The notes below the pieces were generated by a model. It was given only the letters and a program-made list of their open reading frames with translations, did not search any database and was not told the DNA's origin. 64,000 nucleotides of DNA from a virus. Location: positions 61,828-125,827 of IMG/VR virus record IMGVR_UViG_3300032770_000007; one strand, written 5' to 3'. Position 1 is the stretch's first letter. Each line of letters opens with the position of its first letter. Below are positions 14,237 to 40,605 of the stretch, piece by piece. The translations under genes and the position numbers were made by a program.

Positions 14237-14244
14237 TATTTATA
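14237..14244 (-). promoter_or_regulatory. Late promoter TATAAATA
   Basis: The minus strand carries the exact T4 late-promoter element TATAAATA, 51 bp before the preferred ATG at 14186 and in the gap after the gp41 gene. In T4 this element is bound by gp55-RNA polymerase. Confidence 0.65.
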
Positions 14245-30125: not shown

Positions 30126-30392
30126 TCAAGGCAACATAGTTCTATTCCAGTCAACTACTCTAAAACATGTTTTCCTATTATCATTATAATGATATTCTCT
30201 ACCCATGTCTATTGATGCATCATATTCATAAGTACTCAATAATCTGCCATCTTCATCATATAAAAATATAATACCCATATCCAGTAATGCAACAGTAATA
30301 TAGGTTTGATCTGTACCTATTCGATCAACATTAGCTAGAATGCCATACAATGTGAAAAGCTCTCTCAAAACAGAAAGCGTATTATCATTCAT
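30126..30392 (-). CDS. Hypothetical protein, 88 aa
   Basis: Unrecognised. A helical beginning (MNDNTLSVLRELFTLYGILA) is followed by beta-strands (TYITVALLDMGIIFLYDEDG). It begins inside the end of the dNMP kinase gene (4 bp overlap). A 53-bp gap follows before gp45, in which I see no clear regulatory site. Confidence 0.55.
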   Translation of the reverse strand: MNDNTLSVLRELFTLYGILANVDRIGTDQTYITVALLDMGIIFLYDEDGRLLSTYEYDASIDMGREYHYNDNRKTCFRVVDWNRTMLP

Positions 30393-31018
30393 TTAAAAAA
30401 TTCAACTACTTTGGCAACTATAGATTTCAGACTATCCAGTGAATAATCATTTTTGATAACCATTTCTACATGACTATTACACCAATCCCATTCTGAAATA
30501 TGAGGAAGTTGTTTGAAAATATGTTCTCGTATTTCTGGTAGATATCTATTTTGTTTATACATAATAGCCATCTGCATCCATTCTGGATCTGGTCCTCTTT
30601 TGACTCTGACAATATGCGCGCCTGCTATCTTATTGAGAGCATAGATTTCATTTTCAAATCTAACATCAGTGATTACATAATTTTTCTTTAGGTCAAGTCT
30701 ATTGATCAGACTTGAAGTCCAAAGATTATTACCAAAGATTTGTCTACCTGCTTCTGTTCCCATCCATTGTAAGGCCAAGCGAGGAGTGAATTCTGGTTTA
30801 TTAAGTTCCTTGGCCCAATAATCATCAACGGTATCTCGCCATCTTCTTGACTCATCCGTATCACCTTCAAGAAGCTTTCTATCCCAACCAAAAATGATCG
30901 AAACTGCATCTTTTAATGGTTTGGCAAAAGCCTCTGGAGTAAAACCATGATCTTTCTTAAGTAACTCTCCAACAGTGCTTTTACCAGAACCAATTAAGCC
31001 TATCAAACCAATAATCAT
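30389..31018 (-). CDS. 1: Deoxynucleoside monophosphate kinase (T4 gp1-like)
   Basis: The 209-residue P-loop kinase has Walker A GLIGSGKS (residues 5-12) and the dNMP-kinase signature region LALQWMGTEAGRQIFGNNLW, as in T4 gp1. T4 gp1 phosphorylates dTMP, dGMP and hydroxymethyl-dCMP, and so serves phages with modified bases. Here it heads the gene group that includes the predicted DNA-modification enzymes, though gp1-like kinases are also found in phages with plain DNA. Confidence 0.9.
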   Translation of the reverse strand: MIIGLIGLIGSGKSTVGELLKKDHGFTPEAFAKPLKDAVSIIFGWDRKLLEGDTDESRRWRDTVDDYWAKELNKPEFTPRLALQWMGTEAGRQIFGNNLWTSSLINRLDLKKNYVITDVRFENEIYALNKIAGAHIVRVKRGPDPEWMQMAIMYKQNRYLPEIREHIFKQLPHISEWDWCNSHVEMVIKNDYSLDSLKSIVAKVVEFFK

Positions 31019-31021
31019 AGT

Positions 31022-31423
31022 TTATAATCCATAATATGTTTTAGTAATCTCTTCAATAATATATCTTTTTTTATTTTGTAAAAAGTTTTCAAAATCTTCT
31101 ACTATTTGATCTGAAGCGATTTGATCTGAAGCGAGATCATATCCATATTCATATTGTACATTTATAGGATAACGAAAATGTCCTCCGTATCTTGTTATTT
31201 TATTGACTTCTATACAATCATAAGGATGTATGTATGGGACAGAAGGAGTCAAAAATTCTGAATGATTTAACCATTTCCAATGACACCAAAGAGTTACTAG
31301 ATTAACTGATCCCATCATGACAATGTATTGTTCATAAGATATAGAAGGAATATATGGTCTCAATATTCCTTCAATTTCTGATACAGAAGCAAAGACGTGC
31401 TTCTGAAGAAGTTGTTCCATCAT
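31022..31423 (-). CDS. Hypothetical protein, 133 aa
   Basis: Unrecognised, aromatic-rich (SISYEQYIVMM, LVTLWCHWKWLNHSEF). It contains an exact 15-bp tandem duplication giving two copies of the pentapeptide ASDQI (see repeat at 31104-31133). It lies between the dNMP kinase and glycosyltransferase genes. Confidence 0.55.
   Translation of the reverse strand: MMEQLLQKHVFASVSEIEGILRPYIPSISYEQYIVMMGSVNLVTLWCHWKWLNHSEFLTPSVPYIHPYDCIEVNKITRYGGHFRYPINVQYEYGYDLASDQIASDQIVEDFENFLQNKKRYIIEEITKTYYGL
31104..31133 (-). repeat. 15-bp tandem duplication inside a gene
   Basis: Two adjacent exact copies of the 15-mer atttgatctgaagcg (plus-strand reading) keep the reading frame and duplicate five residues. It looks like recent slippage. 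Confidence 0.85.
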
Positions 31424-31435
31424 AGAAAAAGATTT

Positions 31436-32350
31436 TTATAGCTTTCCTAAATGATTGGCTACAGCTGGCATGTCACCAGTAAATGCATAGGTACCAATGT
31501 GGTGCGTACGCATCCAAGGACACAACCAAACTTTACCACCCATGTTGCGCCAGTTCTGACAGAATGTATAATCTTCTGAAAGATAGCGATCAGAACCACC
31601 AACTTCCTTGGCTACTCCATCTACATTAATTGATCTCTTGCGATCAATCAAGCAATCAAAGAAAGCATGAATATAACGACTGCCATCAAAATGAGCCTGT
31701 CCAATATGGTCTGGCTTATAACGATATTCAGGATACTGGACCATGTATCTTTCAAATACTTCTTTCTTGACCATCATGTAACCAGTACCAATTTCCATGA
31801 CTTCAATAGGTTCGCCAATATTGAATTGACCTGTACCAGCCACAGCATTGAATACATAATCACCAACCAGCTTTTCTAGTTCTTCTGGTTTGATAGAGTT
31901 TTCTTCTGCGGATTTAGCCAGGTCAGCTGGTGTTGGGTTGCTGCCCTGAGCCAACTCAGTAACTCCTTTCCAGTTCAAACTACGTACAATGGCTTCTTTG
32001 ATAGCCCACCATTTGATTGACTTCTTTGGATATGGAGCACCAACGATATCCTTATCCATGGCTAAGAGAGTTAGAACGTCTCTTGGATCAAAATGAATAT
32101 CAGCATCGATGAAAAGTAAATGAGAATATCCTGATCTTAGAAATTCATCACAAAGATAGTTTCTGGCTCTAGTGATTAAGCTCTCATTGAAGATAAAAGA
32201 AAATCTGCTTTCAATACCAAACTGTTGGCACATGCCTTGAAGATCAAGACAAGACTTGGCATACATACCATGAGAAAATCCACCATACATGGGAGTAGCA
32301 ATAAACAGTTTTCTACTGGCGAGTTGTTCTCTTGTTATTTCTAAATTCAT
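31436..32350 (-). CDS. Glycosyltransferase-like protein (GT-A fold)
   Basis: The 304-residue protein has LFIATPMYGGFSHGMYAKS at the N-terminus and SHLLFIDADIHFDPRDVLTL (about 81-100) with the D-x-D metal motif, then IVGAPYPKK. Such proteins are known in phages near surface-glycan or DNA-modification genes. C-terminal YLSEDYTFCQNWRNMGGKVW (E-D acceptor motif) completes a GT-A domain. Because it lies directly before the kinase of the modification cluster, it might attach sugar to a hydroxymethylated base; this is inference. Confidence 0.7.
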   Translation of the reverse strand: MNLEITREQLASRKLFIATPMYGGFSHGMYAKSCLDLQGMCQQFGIESRFSFIFNESLITRARNYLCDEFLRSGYSHLLFIDADIHFDPRDVLTLLAMDKDIVGAPYPKKSIKWWAIKEAIVRSLNWKGVTELAQGSNPTPADLAKSAEENSIKPEELEKLVGDYVFNAVAGTGQFNIGEPIEVMEIGTGYMMVKKEVFERYMVQYPEYRYKPDHIGQAHFDGSRYIHAFFDCLIDRKRSINVDGVAKEVGGSDRYLSEDYTFCQNWRNMGGKVWLCPWMRTHHIGTYAFTGDMPAVANHLGKL

Positions 32351-32360
32351 ATTATACCCT

Positions 32361-32939
32361 CTATATCAATTCAACCACTTCATCGGTGTCATGTAGTTCA
32401 AGACGCAACCAATTCACAATATCGACTAAATCAGCCTCATTATTATTGGTCATTTCAGTTATATAGTCCATCAAAACAAAGGATGAACTAATGTTGCTGT
32501 ATTTAGTATCCCTGCCCTTGATAAACTTCTCAGATTGAGTATCTTTTCTATCTATATGTCTTCTTTCTAAAATCATTGGATCTGTATGTATTAATAATAT
32601 TTTAAGATCCAATTTTCCTTCATCAACCAGTTCTGCAGCCTTTTCTAAAAATGAAGCAGTGAATAATCTATCACCTTCAAATAAGATATTGCCTGGACAC
32701 TCTTTCAAAAACATTATGGCTTCAGGCTGAACTGCCATGGATAGTTTATCAGTACCAGCAAACTGTTCATTCAAATCTGAGTAGTCTCCCAATATGTAAA
32801 GCTGATACTTGGGATCATACATTGTTTTGACGAGTTTTCTGGGTTCCTTGACTTCTAGTTCTCTATCAGCCAGGAACCTCTTCATAATACTTGTTTTGCC
32901 TGTAGCTGGCAGACCACCAATAGCTATCATTTTTTTCAT
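32361..32939 (-). CDS. P-loop kinase, candidate 5-hydroxymethyluracil DNA kinase
   Basis: The 192-residue protein has Walker A GGLPATGKTS (8-17), LFEGDRLFTASF (about 92-103) and IHTDPMILERRHIDR (nucleoside-kinase-like lid with Arg residues). Short P-loop kinases that phosphorylate 5-hydroxymethyluracil in DNA are one part of known thymine-hypermodification pathways (phages phi-W-14, M6, SP10). The gene overlaps the pyrophosphorylase-like gene upstream by 4 bp, which supports the same pathway. Other kinase substrates are possible. Confidence 0.6.
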   Translation of the reverse strand: MKKMIAIGGLPATGKTSIMKRFLADRELEVKEPRKLVKTMYDPKYQLYILGDYSDLNEQFAGTDKLSMAVQPEAIMFLKECPGNILFEGDRLFTASFLEKAAELVDEGKLDLKILLIHTDPMILERRHIDRKDTQSEKFIKGRDTKYSNISSSFVLMDYITEMTNNNEADLVDIVNWLRLELHDTDEVVELI

Positions 32940-34042
32940 TCAAACACCAATTCATTCACATTATGATAATACTTACTATTGAAACTATTTTCAAATACTG
33001 GAAAATCCTGATCCATCATTATCACTTCACCAGTCAATCTAAAATGATTTTGTTTCTCTTTTGATAGACCTGTTTGTTTGTGAGTAGGATCAGATGGATT
33101 ATCTTCTACTCGTAAGTATATAGGCAGAGTATCTTTACGTAGTTCGCGTTGATTATCAAATCTAAATCCCCAACGTTCTTCTGCCTTTTGGATCCTCTTA
33201 TAATGCATATCCAAATATACACCAGGATATCGGCGATCCTTTCTAAACCAGGATTTGTAACAACACATTGTACTTTCTAGTGTAAAGTAGGAATTATCTG
33301 GATGTGGATATTGTTCTGAACATTCTTTCAGAAGTCGTTCTCCTTCTTGTTCTAGCCAAGGAAGAACTTTGCTATAATCTCCATTGAAACCTGGATTCAA
33401 TGTTTCATGCCAATCCAAATCATCCCTGCCCAATATTTTACACAATCCATTTCTATGTGATTTGCTGCCATTTATATCATCCAAAAATAGACTATCACAA
33501 TCAATAGGCAGACCAGCAATCCTTAAATATTCCAAATAAGAAAAGGTGGATAATCTACCAAATAGAAAAAACTTTTCCATCACGTAGTTCCATAATCTAC
33601 GGAACCGGATATAGTTATCTCCATCAGTACCACAAACAGATTCAAAAAACTTGGATTGTGTCTGGCCATCAAGATTTGTAAGATATGATAAAACAATATC
33701 ACCAATCTTTGATTTGGTATATTTCCTATCCATGTCCCATTCTAGTTTGTGCCAATGTCTCATTACAAAACTATGAAGTTGATCTGCCTCATTCTTGGTA
33801 GGCAAATCTGGAAAATACCTAAGCAAAGTTTCTGTAGTTACTATGTTTTGACAAACCCCATTTAGAAAACAGGCCCAGAGTAATCGTTCTTTAGACCAAG
33901 CAAATCTATTAGCCAAATAAGGAAAAGCAGCATAAACAAAGCCTGGATGTGCTTTGTGCTTATTATGAAAATAGTAGAATCGTTTAAAGACTTCTCGACG
34001 ATTGATGGGTAAACGATAATCTTGATTAGCTAATAAAATCAT
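32936..34042 (-). CDS. Alpha-glutamyl/putrescinyl thymine pyrophosphorylase-like protein
   Basis: The start at 34042 (MILLANQDYRLPINRREVFK) overlaps the upstream stop (ATGA) with GGAGG before it. The 368-residue protein resembles the family proposed by Iyer and co-workers as alpha-glutamyl/putrescinyl thymine pyrophosphorylases, relatives of DNA-glycosylase-fold proteins that transfer an amino acid or amine to 5-pyrophosphoryloxymethyl uracil in DNA. Recognisable stretches are FGRLSTFSYLEYLRIAGLP, GSKSHRNGLCKILGRDDLDW, LESTMCCYKSWFRKDRRYPG and VYLDMHYKRI. I place it by memory of the family; no search was done. Cleaving transfer of the amine would follow base phosphorylation. Confidence 0.55.
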   Translation of the reverse strand: MILLANQDYRLPINRREVFKRFYYFHNKHKAHPGFVYAAFPYLANRFAWSKERLLWACFLNGVCQNIVTTETLLRYFPDLPTKNEADQLHSFVMRHWHKLEWDMDRKYTKSKIGDIVLSYLTNLDGQTQSKFFESVCGTDGDNYIRFRRLWNYVMEKFFLFGRLSTFSYLEYLRIAGLPIDCDSLFLDDINGSKSHRNGLCKILGRDDLDWHETLNPGFNGDYSKVLPWLEQEGERLLKECSEQYPHPDNSYFTLESTMCCYKSWFRKDRRYPGVYLDMHYKRIQKAEERWGFRFDNQRELRKDTLPIYLRVEDNPSDPTHKQTGLSKEKQNHFRLTGEVIMMDQDFPVFENSFNSKYYHNVNELVFE

Positions 34043-35031
34043 CCAACCTTGCCTCCTATAATCCAAAACATAGATTTACTCTTGTTTATATGAGCAAATA
34101 AATGAGAATGATCTAGCATAAAGTTCCATGCCTTGGACTCATAACGAGGATGAAAATCTATATTTTCATATTGTGCTTCTACTAGTTCATTATAAGTGCT
34201 ATAGCCATCTTTACAATATGAACAACTCTTTTCACCACAACCATTTTGAGCATCAAAGTGTTCTATTTGAATATCTTTTTTATACAAACTATTGATGAAA
34301 CTAAAATCAAAGATAAAGTCTGGATCATAACTATGCACTTTACCAATAGTGACTAATCTATCTCTAACATAAATTGGATTATTAGAACCAAGATTACCTA
34401 CACCAATCATTACAACTCTTTTTATATTTCTTGGATTGAGTGCCAGGCCATGAAGAACACTTACAATGCTGTTACAAGAACCAGCGGAGATAATCAATGT
34501 ATCAACTTCATCAGGTATGTTTGATACCTGAAAGGCACTCACACTATGAAACTTGGCTATGTACTCTGCTTCACCTGTTACTGTAATATTTGTTTCTAAA
34601 TGAAAGAGTTCTGGTGTTACGAGACCTTCAGCCTTGGCTTCTAATGTTTTGGCATAACCCACATTAGACACAACGAACTCAGCACCAAACTTTTGAGCCA
34701 TTTCAAGCATGGGATAGTTTATAATAGTTTGAGTTCCTGTTACATCAATATCTTTGAGACCATAATGATTACAAATAGCAGCAACCATTGGGTGTTGAGG
34801 AGAACCAGAAACAGCTCCATGAACAACTCCTGTCTTACCTTCTTTCACAGCCTTTTCATGGATTAGCCAAATACATTGTCGGCATTTGGTGCCATTGATG
34901 GAATTTGGACCAAGAGGAGCAAAGAAATCTTCCCTCTTGAACCACATATGACCAACTTTTTCTACTGGAGTTAGATCATACAAATGCTGATGCCAAGCAT
35001 CAGTCCATGGGGTCAATACAGATCGTGTCAC
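34039..35031 (-). CDS. Fold-type II PLP-dependent enzyme (ACC deaminase/cysteine desulfhydrase-like)
   Basis: The 330-residue protein starts with GTG at 35031, with GGAG about 9 bp upstream. Lys49 in GPNSINGTKCRQ is the predicted PLP-lysine, VHGAVSGSPQHPMVAA resembles the substrate loop, and IISAGSCNSIVS (180-191) is the phosphate-binding Ser/Gly turn of fold-type II enzymes. An unusual insertion carries Cys265, Cys270 and Cys273 (NGCGEKSCSYCKDG), a possible metal or Fe-S site. PLP enzymes that edit amino-acid groups on hypermodified thymine occur in related clusters, and this gene overlaps the pyrophosphorylase-like gene. Confidence 0.7.
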   Translation of the reverse strand: MTRSVLTPWTDAWHQHLYDLTPVEKVGHMWFKREDFFAPLGPNSINGTKCRQCIWLIHEKAVKEGKTGVVHGAVSGSPQHPMVAAICNHYGLKDIDVTGTQTIINYPMLEMAQKFGAEFVVSNVGYAKTLEAKAEGLVTPELFHLETNITVTGEAEYIAKFHSVSAFQVSNIPDEVDTLIISAGSCNSIVSVLHGLALNPRNIKRVVMIGVGNLGSNNPIYVRDRLVTIGKVHSYDPDFIFDFSFINSLYKKDIQIEHFDAQNGCGEKSCSYCKDGYSTYNELVEAQYENIDFHPRYESKAWNFMLDHSHLFAHINKSKSMFWIIGGKVG

Positions 35032-35051
35032 AGAGCAGCTCTCCTTCCCTT

Positions 35052-35228
35052 CTATACCAAGTCAAATGGATATAGGTGGTCTCGTCGAAAGATTCTATCT
35101 AATATTCTTTGTGAGTAAACTCTTTCACAAAATGGGCATTTCCATTCCATGGTTTCAGGAAATTGTAAGAGTAAATAGGGAGGAGGGGATTGATAAGAGC
35201 AAGGAGCTTCAATACAGGTATATCTCAT
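35052..35228 (-). CDS. Zinc-ribbon-like small protein, 58 aa
   Basis: ATG at 35228 overlaps the stop of the dioxygenase gene (ATGA), and the frame ends at TAG 35052, just before the Shine-Dalgarno of the PLP gene. It has two Cys pairs, CIEAPC at residues 5-10 and CPFC at 31-34, in the pattern of a zinc ribbon, and a basic end (QRILDRIFRRDH). It is in the middle of the modification cluster and may guide one of the enzymes to DNA. No family assigned. Confidence 0.6.
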   Translation of the reverse strand: MRYTCIEAPCSYQSPPPYLLLQFPETMEWKCPFCERVYSQRILDRIFRRDHLYPFDLV

Positions 35229-36496
35229 TCAAAAAGTTCCTCTAAGGTTGTGTAAGATTTAGTTTTTGTAATCAAATGTTCTTGATGTCTAGATCTTAAG
35301 AAGTCATACCATTCTTTAGTCTCAAACATAGACTGACTAACACCATTCCAACCATCTCTAGCCAGTACATGATTTGGATCTTTGCGTCTGTGTTCTACGA
35401 AATCATATCTGGCATCTTCGTATTCTTTTGTGCCCAATTCTAGCATATCCTCACGAAAGTAACACACAAGACTTATTCTCTCATGATCATCACCAGTTAT
35501 AGGAGTATTACCATGGATATACTCATGATTGTTGACCAGGAGCAGATCACCTGGTCTCAAATTCACAGCAGCTCTGATTTCTGGAAGTATTAGATATCCT
35601 CCCTGATAGTTTTTGTTCTTAGCCACAACAGAAAGATTACTAAATCCAGAGTTCAAATCTCCAGCATCTCTGTGAGCAGCTGTTCTGAAGTTTTTATTAA
35701 CAGTTATTGTAGTGAACACAGTACCTGGAATAACAAACTCTGGATCTAGTTTTTTAGCACACTCTAGTTGATTGGCAAATCTATTAGGTAACATTTCATA
35801 GAAACTTAGACTTAGTTTTTGTAAGAATGGAAAAGACAATTGGAACTTATCATAGTTGTGAGCAGTGTAACTAGTTGCTCTACCATAAGGAATACGAGGA
35901 TAGCGTCCAAAGTATCCAGCCACCCCACTTTCTACTGGATTGGCATAAGAGGTATCACTTATGAAAGTGTCTAATACCCATTTGGCTGCTTTTCTAATAT
36001 CTTCTGGTTCTGTGAAAGTAACTACTGCTCGTAGCCATCTGTTCCAATCAAAGTCATGCTTCTTGGTTTCAGAAGTCAACCAAACTTCTCCACGACATTC
36101 TGGATCCTTCTTTGCTCTGGCTCGTAAAGTTTCAATATCCTGTGGAATAGGTAATGTTTCAACTTTGCTTAAGAATTTGAGAATTTCTCTTTGTTCTGGA
36201 GTAAGCCATTCCCTCCCTTGAAGTTTCTTTCCCTTCGGACCAGCAGCCACTCCTCTATTTTGAGATTGTTTGGCTGCTTCTTTCAAACCATCATAGGCTC
36301 CAATCTGGTCTGCATCACTGAACCAATTCTTACGGAACTTCAGAATAATATTCTCTTCATCAGCTCTTTTATTATCAAATGGATCTTTGCGGTAAACATC
36401 ACAATCTTCTTCTAATAAAACATCGTAATGTTTTTCATCTAGGAATGTTTGAAGGAGATGCTCGCAATCAATCTTAGACAAGAATAGTGTTTTCAT
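35225..36496 (-). CDS. TET/JBP-like 2-oxoglutarate, Fe(II)-dependent dioxygenase
   Basis: ATG at 36496 gives 423 residues; an upstream GTG would add 9. Residues 262-350 hold TTITVNKNFRTAAHRDAGDL (H275-x-D277 iron ligands), GFSNLSVVA, NYQGGYLILPEIRAAVNLRP, GDLLLVNNHEYIHGNTP (third ligand His328) and HERISLVCYF (Arg340 for 2-oxoglutarate). The order is that of the TET/JBP family; JBP1/JBP2 oxidise thymine to 5-hydroxymethyluracil, and phage relatives oxidise methylcytosine. This activity would give the hydroxymethyl base that the kinase and transferase next door need. The N-terminal 200 residues are unrecognised. Confidence 0.8.
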   Translation of the reverse strand: MKTLFLSKIDCEHLLQTFLDEKHYDVLLEEDCDVYRKDPFDNKRADEENIILKFRKNWFSDADQIGAYDGLKEAAKQSQNRGVAAGPKGKKLQGREWLTPEQREILKFLSKVETLPIPQDIETLRARAKKDPECRGEVWLTSETKKHDFDWNRWLRAVVTFTEPEDIRKAAKWVLDTFISDTSYANPVESGVAGYFGRYPRIPYGRATSYTAHNYDKFQLSFPFLQKLSLSFYEMLPNRFANQLECAKKLDPEFVIPGTVFTTITVNKNFRTAAHRDAGDLNSGFSNLSVVAKNKNYQGGYLILPEIRAAVNLRPGDLLLVNNHEYIHGNTPITGDDHERISLVCYFREDMLELGTKEYEDARYDFVEHRRKDPNHVLARDGWNGVSQSMFETKEWYDFLRSRHQEHLITKTKSYTTLEELFE

Positions 36497-36529: not shown

Positions 36530-36563
36530 GACAAAATAAAAATGGGGTCACAAAAGTGACCCC
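36530..36563 (-). terminator. Rho-independent terminator
   Basis: Minus strand: GGGGTCAC-TTTT-GTGACCCC perfect 8-bp stem followed by ATTTTTATTTTG. It would stop transcription coming from the MoxR/vWA unit before the dioxygenase gene. Confidence 0.8.
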
Positions 36564-36691: not shown

Positions 36692-36829
36692 TCATTTCTT
36701 CTCATCCCAGGACTTACAAGCTAAGACAAGCATGAGGAAACTAACTCCAAATCCTAACAAGGATAGTCTAGTTTCAACATGGCTTGTTATGAACAATGAG
36801 CCCAAGCACCACAGTACATTTTTGTTCAT
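36692..36829 (-). CDS. Small membrane protein, 45 aa
   Basis: ATG at 36829 overlaps the stop of the MoxR gene (TAATG). MNKNVLWCLGSLFITSHVET followed by RLSLLGFGVSFLMLVLACKS and WDEKK gives two hydrophobic helices and a charged end. No family recognised. Confidence 0.5.
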   Translation of the reverse strand: MNKNVLWCLGSLFITSHVETRLSLLGFGVSFLMLVLACKSWDEKK

Positions 36830-38229
36830 TAGATTGTCGTCCCACCAACCATGTTGTTTTCCACCAGCCGACGCACCATGTCCTCAAACTGATTTACCTG
36901 CGTTGGACTGGGCATTTGGGTCAAAGGCCTAAATGACTTGTTGCCATGTGAGTAGACTGAGAGGTGTTCTGTGCCATTGATGAGTTCATTCTTGATAATG
37001 ACTGCCTTCTTGTAGGCATGGGTCAATTTACCACTCAGAGGTACATACTCAATGTCTGTGGTGGCAGCCGTCTGCTGAACAGTTTCTGGCTTTGCTTCTT
37101 GTGGGCTAGGATCCACATCCAGCTTATCATACAGGTCCAGAAAACCCTTAGCAACCTCTGCATCAAATCGATTCAGGCACAGCTTGATGGCCTTCTTCTT
37201 GTTCTTGAAGATGGCATATGCCTTGGCAATGTGAACCAGGCGGCGAGTACTGATGACTTCATCAACAGCATCATCCTGATAAGAACGGCGGATCTGGTCA
37301 GCCCACTCCACCAGAACTTTGATGAACCGGTCAATACCTTCCTCACCATCCAAACCAAGCTGCTTGAAGTTCTTTTGAAGAATCTTGGTCTCTGTGTCAG
37401 CGTTAGGATATTCCTGTTCTACCGTGATGGCAAATCGCTCCAGGAATGCCTCATTCAGAACATTGGCACCGATGAACCGACCATCACTTGAACCCTTACC
37501 CTTGGTGTTGGCTGTGGCAATGACCTGGAAGCCTGGTTGTGGATAGACAACCGTGTTAGTCTTCTTATCCAGGAATGGCTTGCCCTCCAGCACTGGCTGG
37601 AGGCACAGGAGATGCTCTGAACCATAGTCCGTCTCATCCAGAAGGAGGATGGCGCCACGACGCATGGCAGTCAGCACCGGACCTTCGCGGCGAACAGTAT
37701 TACCATTCACGAGCTCATAGGCACCGAAGAGATCAAGCTCATCAGTATTCTTGGTAATGTTCACGCGCACCACTTCACGACCCAGGCAAGCAGCCACCTG
37801 AAGTGCCATGAGTGTTTTTCCATTACCACTCAGGCCTGTGATGTAGATGGGATAGAAAATCTTGGAGTTGATGATATTCTTCAGATCAGTGTAGAAACCG
37901 AAGGGCACATAAGTGGGATCCTTCGGTGGCACAAAAGAATCAGAAATGATCATTTCTGTCTCTGGTGTTACAGCCAAATGAACTGCTGCTGGCACAGGGA
38001 CGGATACTGATGCTGGAGTAATGACTGGATTGGTTCCCTTGCAGCGATACTTGCCCCAGCCTGCGCTCCTTGACTTGTTGTAGGTCAGGAAGTAGGGATA
38101 GGGTAGACCATTGGCCTTGCAGAATTCATTGATCTGCTTGTTGGTGACCACATCAGTCTTGAAGTGTTCTGAAATCCGATTACAGAACTCTTCCTGGCTG
38201 GCGCTATCAGGATAGTTAGGCTTTCGCAT
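36829..38229 (-). CDS. MoxR/CobS-type AAA+ ATPase
   Basis: The 466-residue protein has an AAA_5 core: Walker A GLSGNGKT (132-139), Walker B ILLLDETDYG (Asp199/Glu200 region), FQVIATANTKGKG (sensor 1) and a helical C-terminal half. Relatives in aquatic T4-like phages are labelled CobS, but cobalt insertion is unlikely without other cobalamin genes. It is paired with a vWA-domain protein (38320-40605), the MoxR-vWA arrangement used for protein remodelling. Codon choice is visibly more GC-rich than in flanking genes. N-terminal 120 residues are family-specific and unknown. Confidence 0.75.
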   Translation of the reverse strand: MRKPNYPDSASQEEFCNRISEHFKTDVVTNKQINEFCKANGLPYPYFLTYNKSRSAGWGKYRCKGTNPVITPASVSVPVPAAVHLAVTPETEMIISDSFVPPKDPTYVPFGFYTDLKNIINSKIFYPIYITGLSGNGKTLMALQVAACLGREVVRVNITKNTDELDLFGAYELVNGNTVRREGPVLTAMRRGAILLLDETDYGSEHLLCLQPVLEGKPFLDKKTNTVVYPQPGFQVIATANTKGKGSSDGRFIGANVLNEAFLERFAITVEQEYPNADTETKILQKNFKQLGLDGEEGIDRFIKVLVEWADQIRRSYQDDAVDEVISTRRLVHIAKAYAIFKNKKKAIKLCLNRFDAEVAKGFLDLYDKLDVDPSPQEAKPETVQQTAATTDIEYVPLSGKLTHAYKKAVIIKNELINGTEHLSVYSHGNKSFRPLTQMPSPTQVNQFEDMVRRLVENNMVGGTTI

Positions 38230-38319: not shown

Positions 38320-40605
38320 TCAATCACTTAGACGGTCCTCAAGACCATCAATAGTGGATATATCCTGGGCAAACTGGCTCAGGATGATCCTGGATGCCTT
38401 CTTCATCTGTTGATGATTTGTGAATGCCTTTTGAAGGACATCCTGACCCTTTTTGGTCTGTGTGTTCTCAAACTTACGAGAAGTGAAGTCATCCTCATAA
38501 CCCATGAACTTGGTGCTCACGTAATAATAGTTATCAAACCCAAGAACAGGCATGGCTACAAAACCATATTCCTTCAGATTCTTCATTTTCTCTCTATTGC
38601 TCTGCTCATCCTTAGTAGAAGTTCGATTGCGGATCTGAGCCTCAATCTCATTGGAACTGCAAATGTAGTATCCAATATGACGACACCCAGTGATCTGCTT
38701 GACCAACTCAGTCAAAGAAGCTTGAAGTGTCACGTAGTCATAAGCATCTGACGATACAAACTGGCCAGTGATAGGATCAGTGATGATTACTTTCGTCAGA
38801 TTCTTTTGACAAGTTTCTGACCTTACTGCTGAAGGCAGGTTAATGCCATTACCAGCACCATCAGTCAGGTAGATCACATTTACAATGTCTACCTTGGTAT
38901 TCATTTTGAACTCTTCAATCATCGTCCTTGATGTCATAACTGCCTCACTCAGAGGAGTGCCAGACATTGAAAGACCAGTCGTCGTTGAGTGACTGAATCC
39001 CTCCAATCCTTTTTGTACCACTTGATATTCTTCTGATTGGGGATCCATTCCAGCAGATAAAGAATGCACCGCCGCAAAGAAGGACAGCATTTTGTATGCT
39101 CGTCTTTGAAGACTGGCTGGAATGTTAGAAGACATCAGATGCCTCAAATGAAAGCCTGGACTATGAACAGGCAGATCACGCGGCATTGAGCTGAACTTGG
39201 CACCACCTTTGCGTGTAGGCATTGAACCATAGTCATTCCGGTCAGCAAAACCATAAACGTCGAAGGGGATTTTGACTTTCTGACAAAAAGCAGTCAGGAT
39301 GATGATCTGCTCTATTGAATGGAACATGTAGTCTCCATTCATTGAACCAGACATATCCAGAAACATAATCATGCCATGGCTTTTGCCCTTTGGCACTTCT
39401 GTGATGCGGCGGAACACATCAGACGTGAACTTGTACTGAGACAACCGGCGCATGTCCAGTTCACCAGAGCGATGAGTCTGTGCGCGGTAATATTGCCGCG
39501 CATCCTTCTTCATTTCAAACTCTTTGACCAACACGTTGATGTGATCTCTGTGCTTTTTCATGAAATAACTCAACAGCATTTCACTGCGATTGTGATATTC
39601 AGGCAACTTGCTTTGAATGGCTGCTTCAAAAAAACTCACAACATTATTGACATCATAGATCATTTTGTTGTGGTTGACACGAGGTAGAGTGACATTAGCA
39701 ACTGAGTGGCTGCTAGTGTCCATCAACTCTTTTTCCTTTTGACGGAAAATCTTGTCTGTAACAGCAGTTGGCTTAACTTTGGACTTGCCATGATCTGGAC
39801 TACCCTGTTCCGCATCAACTACATTTGATGACTTTTGGTCTTCTCCATCATTCTGTTCATTAGGATCCTGGCCTTCAGCATCAGAGCTTTGGCCATCTTG
39901 AGCCTCGCCTTCTTCACCATCCTGGCCATCACCACGCTCACGCTTGCCCTTTTTGGTGCCATCCTTAGCAGCAGCCAGGTCATCAAGATTCTGAATGGCT
40001 CCCCTTTCCTGCTGGCAGGCCACATAGATTTCACGAGCCAGTTTGAGCACTTGCTCAAATGTGTCTGCCTCATCCAACCGACGAACGAAATCTTTTTCCT
40101 TCTTATTGAACTGAACACCAACCAGTGCACCAATCTTGAAATAGAGATTGATGCGGTCAATCAGATTAAGTTCATTCAGGTCAATGTCCTTGACACCAAA
40201 AAAATCACGATCAAAAAGTTCTTTGTAACCCTGTACAAAGGATTTACGAAGGCCAGGAAACTTATTCTTGATTTTCTTTTCAATCCTGGCATCCTCACAG
40301 ACGTTCAGGAAAAACTTGAAGTTTTCATCAAAGCATGAAGCATCATGCGCATGATTTTCTTTGCATTGCATTATTGCATCATGCCAACCTTCTGCTGGAG
40401 TGTTGAGAGCATGACCCACTTCATGACCCATGAGGAGATCATAAAGTTCGGGTGATGTGTCTTTCCAGTCAGGGACATGAAGGACGCGCTCTTTCATATC
40501 AAAGAATGCGGTCCTGATGCCTTCATGAAACACCTGGATATTCTCTGCGGCCATTAGCTTGGCAAGCAGAGATTTGGTGGTTACTAAACTGGTCTTTCTA
40601 GCCAA
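38320..40605 (-). CDS. Metallopeptidase-like (HEVGH) plus vWA domain protein, CobT-like
   Basis: The 761-residue protein starts with TTG at 40605, with AGGAGA 6 bp upstream. Residues 1-200 carry HEVGHALNTP (HExxH at 61-65) and NVCEDARIEKKIKNKF (Glu104 region, possible third zinc ligand), resembling a zinc metallopeptidase. Residues 220-275 are acidic low complexity (Asp, Glu, Gln, Gly). Residues 410-760 are a vWA domain with MIDAS DMSGSMN (Asp417, Ser419, Ser421). CobT and its relatives have the acidic linker plus vWA but no HExxH. Works presumably with the MoxR-type ATPase. Confidence 0.75.
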   Translation of the reverse strand: MARKTSLVTTKSLLAKLMAAENIQVFHEGIRTAFFDMKERVLHVPDWKDTSPELYDLLMGHEVGHALNTPAEGWHDAIMQCKENHAHDASCFDENFKFFLNVCEDARIEKKIKNKFPGLRKSFVQGYKELFDRDFFGVKDIDLNELNLIDRINLYFKIGALVGVQFNKKEKDFVRRLDEADTFEQVLKLAREIYVACQQERGAIQNLDDLAAAKDGTKKGKRERGDGQDGEEGEAQDGQSSDAEGQDPNEQNDGEDQKSSNVVDAEQGSPDHGKSKVKPTAVTDKIFRQKEKELMDTSSHSVANVTLPRVNHNKMIYDVNNVVSFFEAAIQSKLPEYHNRSEMLLSYFMKKHRDHINVLVKEFEMKKDARQYYRAQTHRSGELDMRRLSQYKFTSDVFRRITEVPKGKSHGMIMFLDMSGSMNGDYMFHSIEQIIILTAFCQKVKIPFDVYGFADRNDYGSMPTRKGGAKFSSMPRDLPVHSPGFHLRHLMSSNIPASLQRRAYKMLSFFAAVHSLSAGMDPQSEEYQVVQKGLEGFSHSTTTGLSMSGTPLSEAVMTSRTMIEEFKMNTKVDIVNVIYLTDGAGNGINLPSAVRSETCQKNLTKVIITDPITGQFVSSDAYDYVTLQASLTELVKQITGCRHIGYYICSSNEIEAQIRNRTSTKDEQSNREKMKNLKEYGFVAMPVLGFDNYYYVSTKFMGYEDDFTSRKFENTQTKKGQDVLQKAFTNHQQMKKASRIILSQFAQDISTIDGLEDRLSD

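Follow-up and report, generated by a model that had tools for sequence, protein, structure and literature searches.

A predicted thymidine hypermodification operon headed by a TET/JBP-type dioxygenase in a T4-type virus genome

Gene content of the locus

The DNA analyzed here is a 64,000-base window comprising bases 61,828–125,827 of the 125,827-base virus record IMGVR_UViG_3300032770_000007, and our subject is a five-gene cluster on its minus strand (window positions 36496–32361) that we read as a predicted operon for post-replicative hypermodification of thymidine. The cluster encodes, in this order, a TET/JBP dioxygenase, a 58-amino-acid (aa) peptide, a pyridoxal phosphate (PLP) enzyme, an amino acid:DNA transferase (ADDT), and a P-loop kinase. 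A glycosyltransferase, a 133-aa protein of unknown type, and a deoxynucleoside monophosphate (dNMP) kinase come next on the same strand, and the gene neighbors in the cluster are mostly in contact or overlap by a few bases (Table 1).

An earlier note, made from the letters of this DNA alone, had described a DNA hypermodification cluster at this place. All of the genes it listed were recovered at their positions on the minus strand, and the protein families it named were borne out by profile searches against Pfam and PHROG; the 133-aa gene was missing from its list. The 368-aa transferase of that note is the reading from an internal ATG (at about 34042) of a 376-aa open reading frame that starts with TTG at 34066.

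Table 1. Genes and other features of the cluster and its immediate flanks (window positions)
Feature	Position	Strand	Evidence and remarks
TET/JBP-type Fe(II)/2-oxoglutarate dioxygenase, 423 aa	35225..36496	-	ATG at 36496; PF12851 3.3e-23
58-aa four-Cys protein (CxxxxxC...CxxC), zinc-ribbon/treble-clef-like	35052..35228	-	DUF4379 0.006, below cut-off
PLP enzyme, tryptophan-synthase-beta-like family, 330 aa	34039..35031	-	PALP 2.4e-5, below cut-off; phrog_3650 3.5e-67
ADDT, 368 aa	32936..34042	-	PF18724 1.2e-16, above cut-off; phrog_3271 3.4e-65
P-loop kinase, 192 aa, predicted 5-hydroxymethyluracil DNA kinase	32361..32939	-	phrog_800 1.9e-11; Ploopntkinase3 1.7e-5, below cut-off
DxD glycosyltransferase, 304 aa	31436..32350	-	phrog_1574 9e-60; Anp1-like 1.5e-6, just below cut-off
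133-aa protein between glycosyltransferase and dNMP kinase	31022..31423	-	no Pfam match above cut-off, no PHROG match
dNMP kinase, T4 gp1-like	30389..31018	-	PF21448 6.1e-10; phrog_139 4.3e-45
Terminator-like hairpin (GGGGTCAC-TTTT-GTGACCCC, then T-rich)	36544..36563	-	pattern scan and sequence; just upstream of the dioxygenase gene

Protein families and their counterparts in phage Vi01

The motif that the earlier note had assigned to the dioxygenase (H275-x-D277, H328, R340) is correct: the three metal ligands are invariant among 47 diverse viral homologs, and R340 is retained in 46 of them. The protein is 45–51% identical to the dioxygenases of Caulobacter phage Cr30 and Stenotrophomonas phage DLP6. 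An AlphaFold2 model based on the 47-sequence alignment reached a pLDDT of 93, replacing a discarded model from 12 close sequences (pLDDT 47.7), and its 26 top PDB matches are all DNA dioxygenases, namely TET2, NgTET1, CcTet, and CMD1. By its domain, metal triad, 2-oxoglutarate-binding Arg, and predicted fold, the protein is a TET-type DNA dioxygenase.

The DNA of Salmonella phage Vi01 (ViI; Ackermannviridae) carries 5-(2-aminoethoxy)methyl-dU at ~40% of thymidines (PMC11721090). Like the window, Vi01 encodes an ADDT (Vi01_199), a PLP enzyme (Vi01_182), and a 5-hydroxymethyldeoxyuridine (5-hmdU) DNA kinase (Vi01_061c), the first and last of which are named as amino acid:DNA transferase and 5-hmdU DNA kinase by Pfam. 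The two ADDTs share phrog_3271, and the two PLP enzymes share phrog_3650 and match each other directly (phmmer 2.5e-53), with the candidate Schiff-base Lys49 kept in 34 of 34 homologs. The kinase falls, together with those of Vi01, M6, and phiW-14, in phrog_800, and retains the Walker A G/G/K residues seen in 67/67 sequences. Profile–profile alignment (hhalign) with the kinases of Vi01, M6, phiW-14, and Glutamicibacter phage Montesquieu scored 98.0% (E=1.6e-13) over 127 columns, extending well past the P-loop. A profile of the window-type kinase, hereafter KIN, gave no direct match to the Vi01 and M6 kinases, and the window kinase gave no direct match to PF18748. We therefore regard the 192-aa protein, in which the P-loop noted earlier is present, as related to the 5-hmdU DNA kinases by remote homology.

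The PHROG label of this kinase family, "terminase small subunit," was rejected, since Pfam names the Vi01 and M6 members 5-hmdU DNA kinase. The same label is attached in both PHROG and GenBank to phrog_800 members (M6 gp54, Vi01_061c, phiW-14 gp036, and Cr30 gp114), a misannotation that is spreading.

The two Cys pairs reported for the 58-aa peptide were confirmed, and the peptide is weakly treble-clef-like. At the same place in a related locus lies a counterpart whose Cys pattern is similar (L099:8106-8285); the order TET, 58-aa protein, PLP enzyme, ADDT in that locus is that of the window, and its ADDT is 70% identical.

The PLP enzyme, the transferase, and the kinase all match the Vi01 set; the hydroxymethylase is the missing piece. 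Vi01 makes 5-hydroxymethyluracil (5hmU) at the nucleotide level through a diverged thymidylate-synthase-family enzyme (PF00303 7.9e-16) and has no TET; its genes are scattered, whereas the window has one operon in which one kinase was found.

TET or hydroxymethylase as the predicted source of 5-hydroxymethyluracil

The earlier note had seen no dUMP hydroxymethylase in the window, and this holds record-wide: PF00303 is absent from all 125,827 bp. The record does encode ThyX, and ordinary dTMP, hence thymine, can therefore be made by the phage.

The proposed replacement of the hydroxymethylase by TET was examined in ADDT relatives gathered irrespective of TET. A three-sequence ADDT alignment recovered 223 of these from IMG/VR, and 80 loci were kept; a six-sequence alignment was too diverse as a query, and single-protein scans found one relative of the window ADDT and none of the window PLP enzyme. 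Among the 35 well-flanked loci (≥2.5 kb on either side of ADDT), 31 carry TET and 4 a diverged hydroxymethylase, with none carrying both and none lacking both (Fisher 1.9e-5); this 31:4 ratio is biased by the inclusion of TET-linked sequences in the query alignment, which leaves the exclusion unaffected, and related loci do not count as independent cases. With loci merged at 90% ADDT identity, 25 TET and 2 hydroxymethylase loci remain (Fisher 0.003). Pfam searches over 48 larger ADDT records agree, with TET in 38, PF00303 in 4, and both in none, and all 10 of the ADDT loci without either enzyme have ADDT <1 kb from the locus start. The kinase subtype tracks the source enzyme as well, KIN occurring with TET (26 loci) and the Vi/M6 type with the hydroxymethylase (4). 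The replacement thus came through a test that was able to fail, exactly one of the two enzymes being present in each of the 35 loci.

Nine named phages were compared in the same way. PF00303 without TET occurs in M6, Vi01, phiW-14, PWKp5, Montesquieu, and VPALA, and TET without PF00303 in Prince and DLP6. Cr30 has TET together with a PF00303 protein that scores 373 bits (3.9e-113), versus 33–86 bits in the other PF00303 phages, and by this score we read it as an ordinary thymidylate synthase.

TET/JBP-made hydroxymethyl pyrimidines were reportedly predicted by Iyer et al. in 2013 to be starting points for complex bases, and related gene sets occur in several of these phages. In Montesquieu, the ADDT and PLP genes adjoin each other, kinase-type genes lie beside them, and a hydroxymethylase gene is close by; TET is absent. 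Cr30 resembles the window in its TET (45% identical), kinase (40%), and glycosyltransferase (45%) and in the presence of a PF18724 ADDT, but its genes extend over ~15 kb, its ADDT belongs to another subgroup, and its glycosyltransferase is weakly TAGT-like; no PLP match was found in the 21 kb examined. Mycobacteriophage Prince shares with the window TET, ADDT, and a P-loop kinase in the absence of a hydroxymethylase, and differs in that no PLP enzyme is listed in its annotated genes 1–10 and its TET Pfam match is weak (5.5e-6, below cut-off). Clusters of the Prince type and that of Rhodococcus phage Tonitrus comprise ParB, TET/JBP, ADDT/aGPT-Pplase2, and kinase, and the five-gene TET/ADDT/kinase cluster of Tonitrus has already been called a thymidine hypermodification system (PMC11955845). 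Of the distinct route proposed in the earlier note, the TET-primed replacement is supported, whereas the idea of TET-primed thymine hypermodification was already in print. In the literature examined, we found no description of a TET paired with a PLP enzyme of Vi01 type, of the many-locus mutual exclusion with the hydroxymethylase, or of the swap patterns considered below.

Exchangeable tailoring genes and the proposed pathway

ADDT and KIN are adjacent in 63 of 67 loci, and a tailoring slot lies mostly between TET and ADDT. In the well-flanked TET loci, this slot is occupied by a Vi-type PLP enzyme (17 loci) or by MT261, a 261-aa protein whose motif is methyltransferase-like (10 loci), and never by the two together. 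The slot is therefore exchangeable, and the window has it in its PLP-enzyme version. A quick TET tree requires at least 18 class changes against a minimum of 4, a count that is indicative only, given its many weak branches, of slot contents having been exchanged between viruses. At a larger scale, 57 T4-like loci spanning a window-type TET to the glycosyltransferase divide into 37 with tailoring genes, ADDT, and kinase and 20 in which one GT4 glycosyltransferase replaces kinase and ADDT, with none mixed; such an all-or-none swap is expected if the TET-made hydroxymethyl group gets either activated or glycosylated.

Several further arrangements were observed in the related loci. The 261-aa family (GxGx motif, LDxPNSS, WTDTSVTYP) sits in the PLP slot at L125:9163-9948 and in ~28 other loci; for its member in L074, neither Pfam nor PHROG gave a match. 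At L025:11271-12822 and in its relatives, a glutamine amidotransferase (GATase; PF13522) is followed by a 298-aa protein with GxEIEW, HxH, and EFR motifs that resembles amidoligases and has no Pfam or PHROG match; the two are a possible amide-forming tailoring pair. At L030:11266-12600 and in 19 similar loci, the GT4 glycosyltransferase directly follows TET without kinase or ADDT, and glycosylated, base-J-like 5hmU is a possible product in these T4-like phages. At approximately L144:329-2527, two ADDT-like genes lie side by side, the similarity of the second being distant, and the TET region of L105 (record G023) contains one TGA and two TAG codons in frame, indicating either that the gene is broken or that the phage is recoded. 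TET (at record position 210224), ADDT, and kinase were also found in L155, on a record of jumbo-phage size (G052; 305,782 bases); a 2021 survey had found no TET/JBP in the jumbo phages then known (PMC7824862).

Taken over all these loci, we lean, by a modest margin over even odds, toward a widespread class of viruses that would decorate thymine wholly in situ. Oxidation of T by TET within the DNA, perhaps at selected sequences, would come first. The final chemistry would then be set by the occupant of the exchangeable slot, be it a Vi-type PLP enzyme, the 261-aa methyltransferase-like protein, or a GATase paired with a GNAT or amidoligase-like protein, or by the whole-branch GT4 swap, and several nucleosides not seen so far would result.

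The foremost alternative for the window, itself improbable, is that TET makes 5hmU and the adjoining DxD glycosyltransferase glycosylates it, either alone or beside the amino-acid branch. In kinetoplastid base J synthesis, a TET/JBP enzyme (JBP1/2) first hydroxylates thymine in DNA and a glucosyltransferase then places sugar on the 5hmU; the same first step is predicted for the window, with an amino-acid branch instead of the sugar. The phrog_1574 glycosyltransferase does lie downstream of TET in the 57 loci of both branches, and the sister arrangement of TET followed by GT4 dispenses with kinase and ADDT. However, the window retains intact genes for the kinase, ADDT, and PLP enzyme, the same type of glycosyltransferase is present in Sinorhizobium phages that yielded no TET relative, and of the 27 TET+KIN loci that extend far enough to show it downstream of KIN, 17 lack it there. 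Its association with the pathway is thus uncertain. The earlier note had drawn both the glycosyltransferase and the dNMP kinase into the pathway; the two genes are present, but their membership is not supported, and the dNMP kinase is probably an ordinary housekeeping gene of T4 type.

Somewhat less likely again is a cytosine route, in which TET oxidizes 5-methylcytosine (5mC) in DNA and the resulting 5-hydroxymethylcytosine is decorated by the other three enzymes (kinase, ADDT, and PLP enzyme). Phage TETs are said to act on cytosine (Burke et al. 2021), and in phage cytosine hypermodification TET acts on phage DNA as the entry to further decoration, starting from 5mC, which could here come from a host methyltransferase. 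The solved structures that best match the model are mostly 5mC dioxygenases. D280, three residues past the metal Asp, aligns with the Asn of TET2 HRDLHN at a position (D in 30 and N in 16 of the 47 viral homologs) that we take to be the base-reading Asn/Asp of TET2 and NgTET1, so that the active site appears compatible with 5mC too. Against this, a C5-cytosine methyltransferase (PF00145) was detected in none of 27 records (that of the window and 26 related ones) and in 1 of the 48 ADDT records, where it lies 65 kb from TET; the partner enzymes are homologous to thymidine-pathway enzymes; and TET swaps with a uracil hydroxymethylase. The context, through the lack of a C5-methyltransferase and the exchange with the hydroxymethylase, favors thymine over 5mC as the predicted TET substrate.

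Least probable is that the PLP enzyme or the 58-aa protein acts outside DNA modification, for example in amino-acid supply or regulation: the latter recurs in one other locus only (L099) and other genes replace the former in many loci, but the PLP family occurs in 38 of the 79 loci with ADDT, frequently in contact with adjacent genes, has a homolog in Vi01, and by its position and mutual exclusion with MT261 argues for a dedicated tailoring slot.

We favor, with a probability of roughly 0.8, the reading of the cluster as a post-replicative thymidine hypermodification operon in which in-DNA oxidation by TET precedes the kinase, ADDT, and PLP steps. In the predicted pathway, ordinary dTMP would be made (ThyX) and incorporated by the phage, and the dioxygenase would convert the 5-methyl group of some thymines in DNA, giving 5hmU. 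The P-loop kinase would phosphorylate the 5hmU hydroxyl, ADDT would let a free amino acid displace the (pyro)phosphate, and the PLP enzyme would trim the amino acid once attached; decarboxylation, the reaction proposed for its Vi01 relative, is the likeliest way. We expect an aminoalkyl-type 5-substituted deoxyuridine as product, for example 5-(2-aminoethoxy)methyl-dU or a close relative; this exact compound is somewhat less likely than not. The modified base would protect the phage DNA from host nucleases.

Besides the possibly 5mC-compatible active site and the sampling of the ADDT loci, several points weigh against this reading. Decarboxylation by the PLP enzyme draws on what Lee et al. (2022) reportedly described. 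The window ADDT is ~29% identical to the Ackermannviridae enzyme, and therefore the amino acid used may differ. Vi01 has two kinase families (PF18748 and PF18747) versus the one kinase found in the window, and in phiW-14 a pyrophosphoryl intermediate occurs in DNA (PMC5977210). The record, linear at 125.8 kb and without end repeats, may be incomplete, and gene absences apply to its sequenced part only.

As to the genomic setting, the terminator-like hairpin just upstream of TET, a pattern match, suggests that this gene is the operon start. No T4-type late promoter (TATAAATA) was found near the cluster, its one match in the window, at 14237, being below chance expectation, and an Rfam search gave no match. 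The window carries T4-type core genes for portal gp20, capsid gp23, DNA polymerase, gp32, the clamp and its loader, and UvsW/UvsY. Upstream of the cluster on the minus strand, an AAA+ (CbbQ/CobS-like) ATPase, recognized by Pfam and PHROG (36829-38229), adjoins a 761-aa protein (38320-40605) that may be its CobT/VWA-type partner.

The prediction is testable in cultured phages with TET and ADDT, such as Cr30 and the mycobacteriophages. If true, the operon would represent a second way into amino-acid-decorated DNA, independent of the first, in which the base is oxidized in place. Partial or sequence-selective decoration would then be possible and an altered nucleotide pool unnecessary, and thymine-acting TETs with their tailoring enzymes would be available as tools for DNA chemistry.

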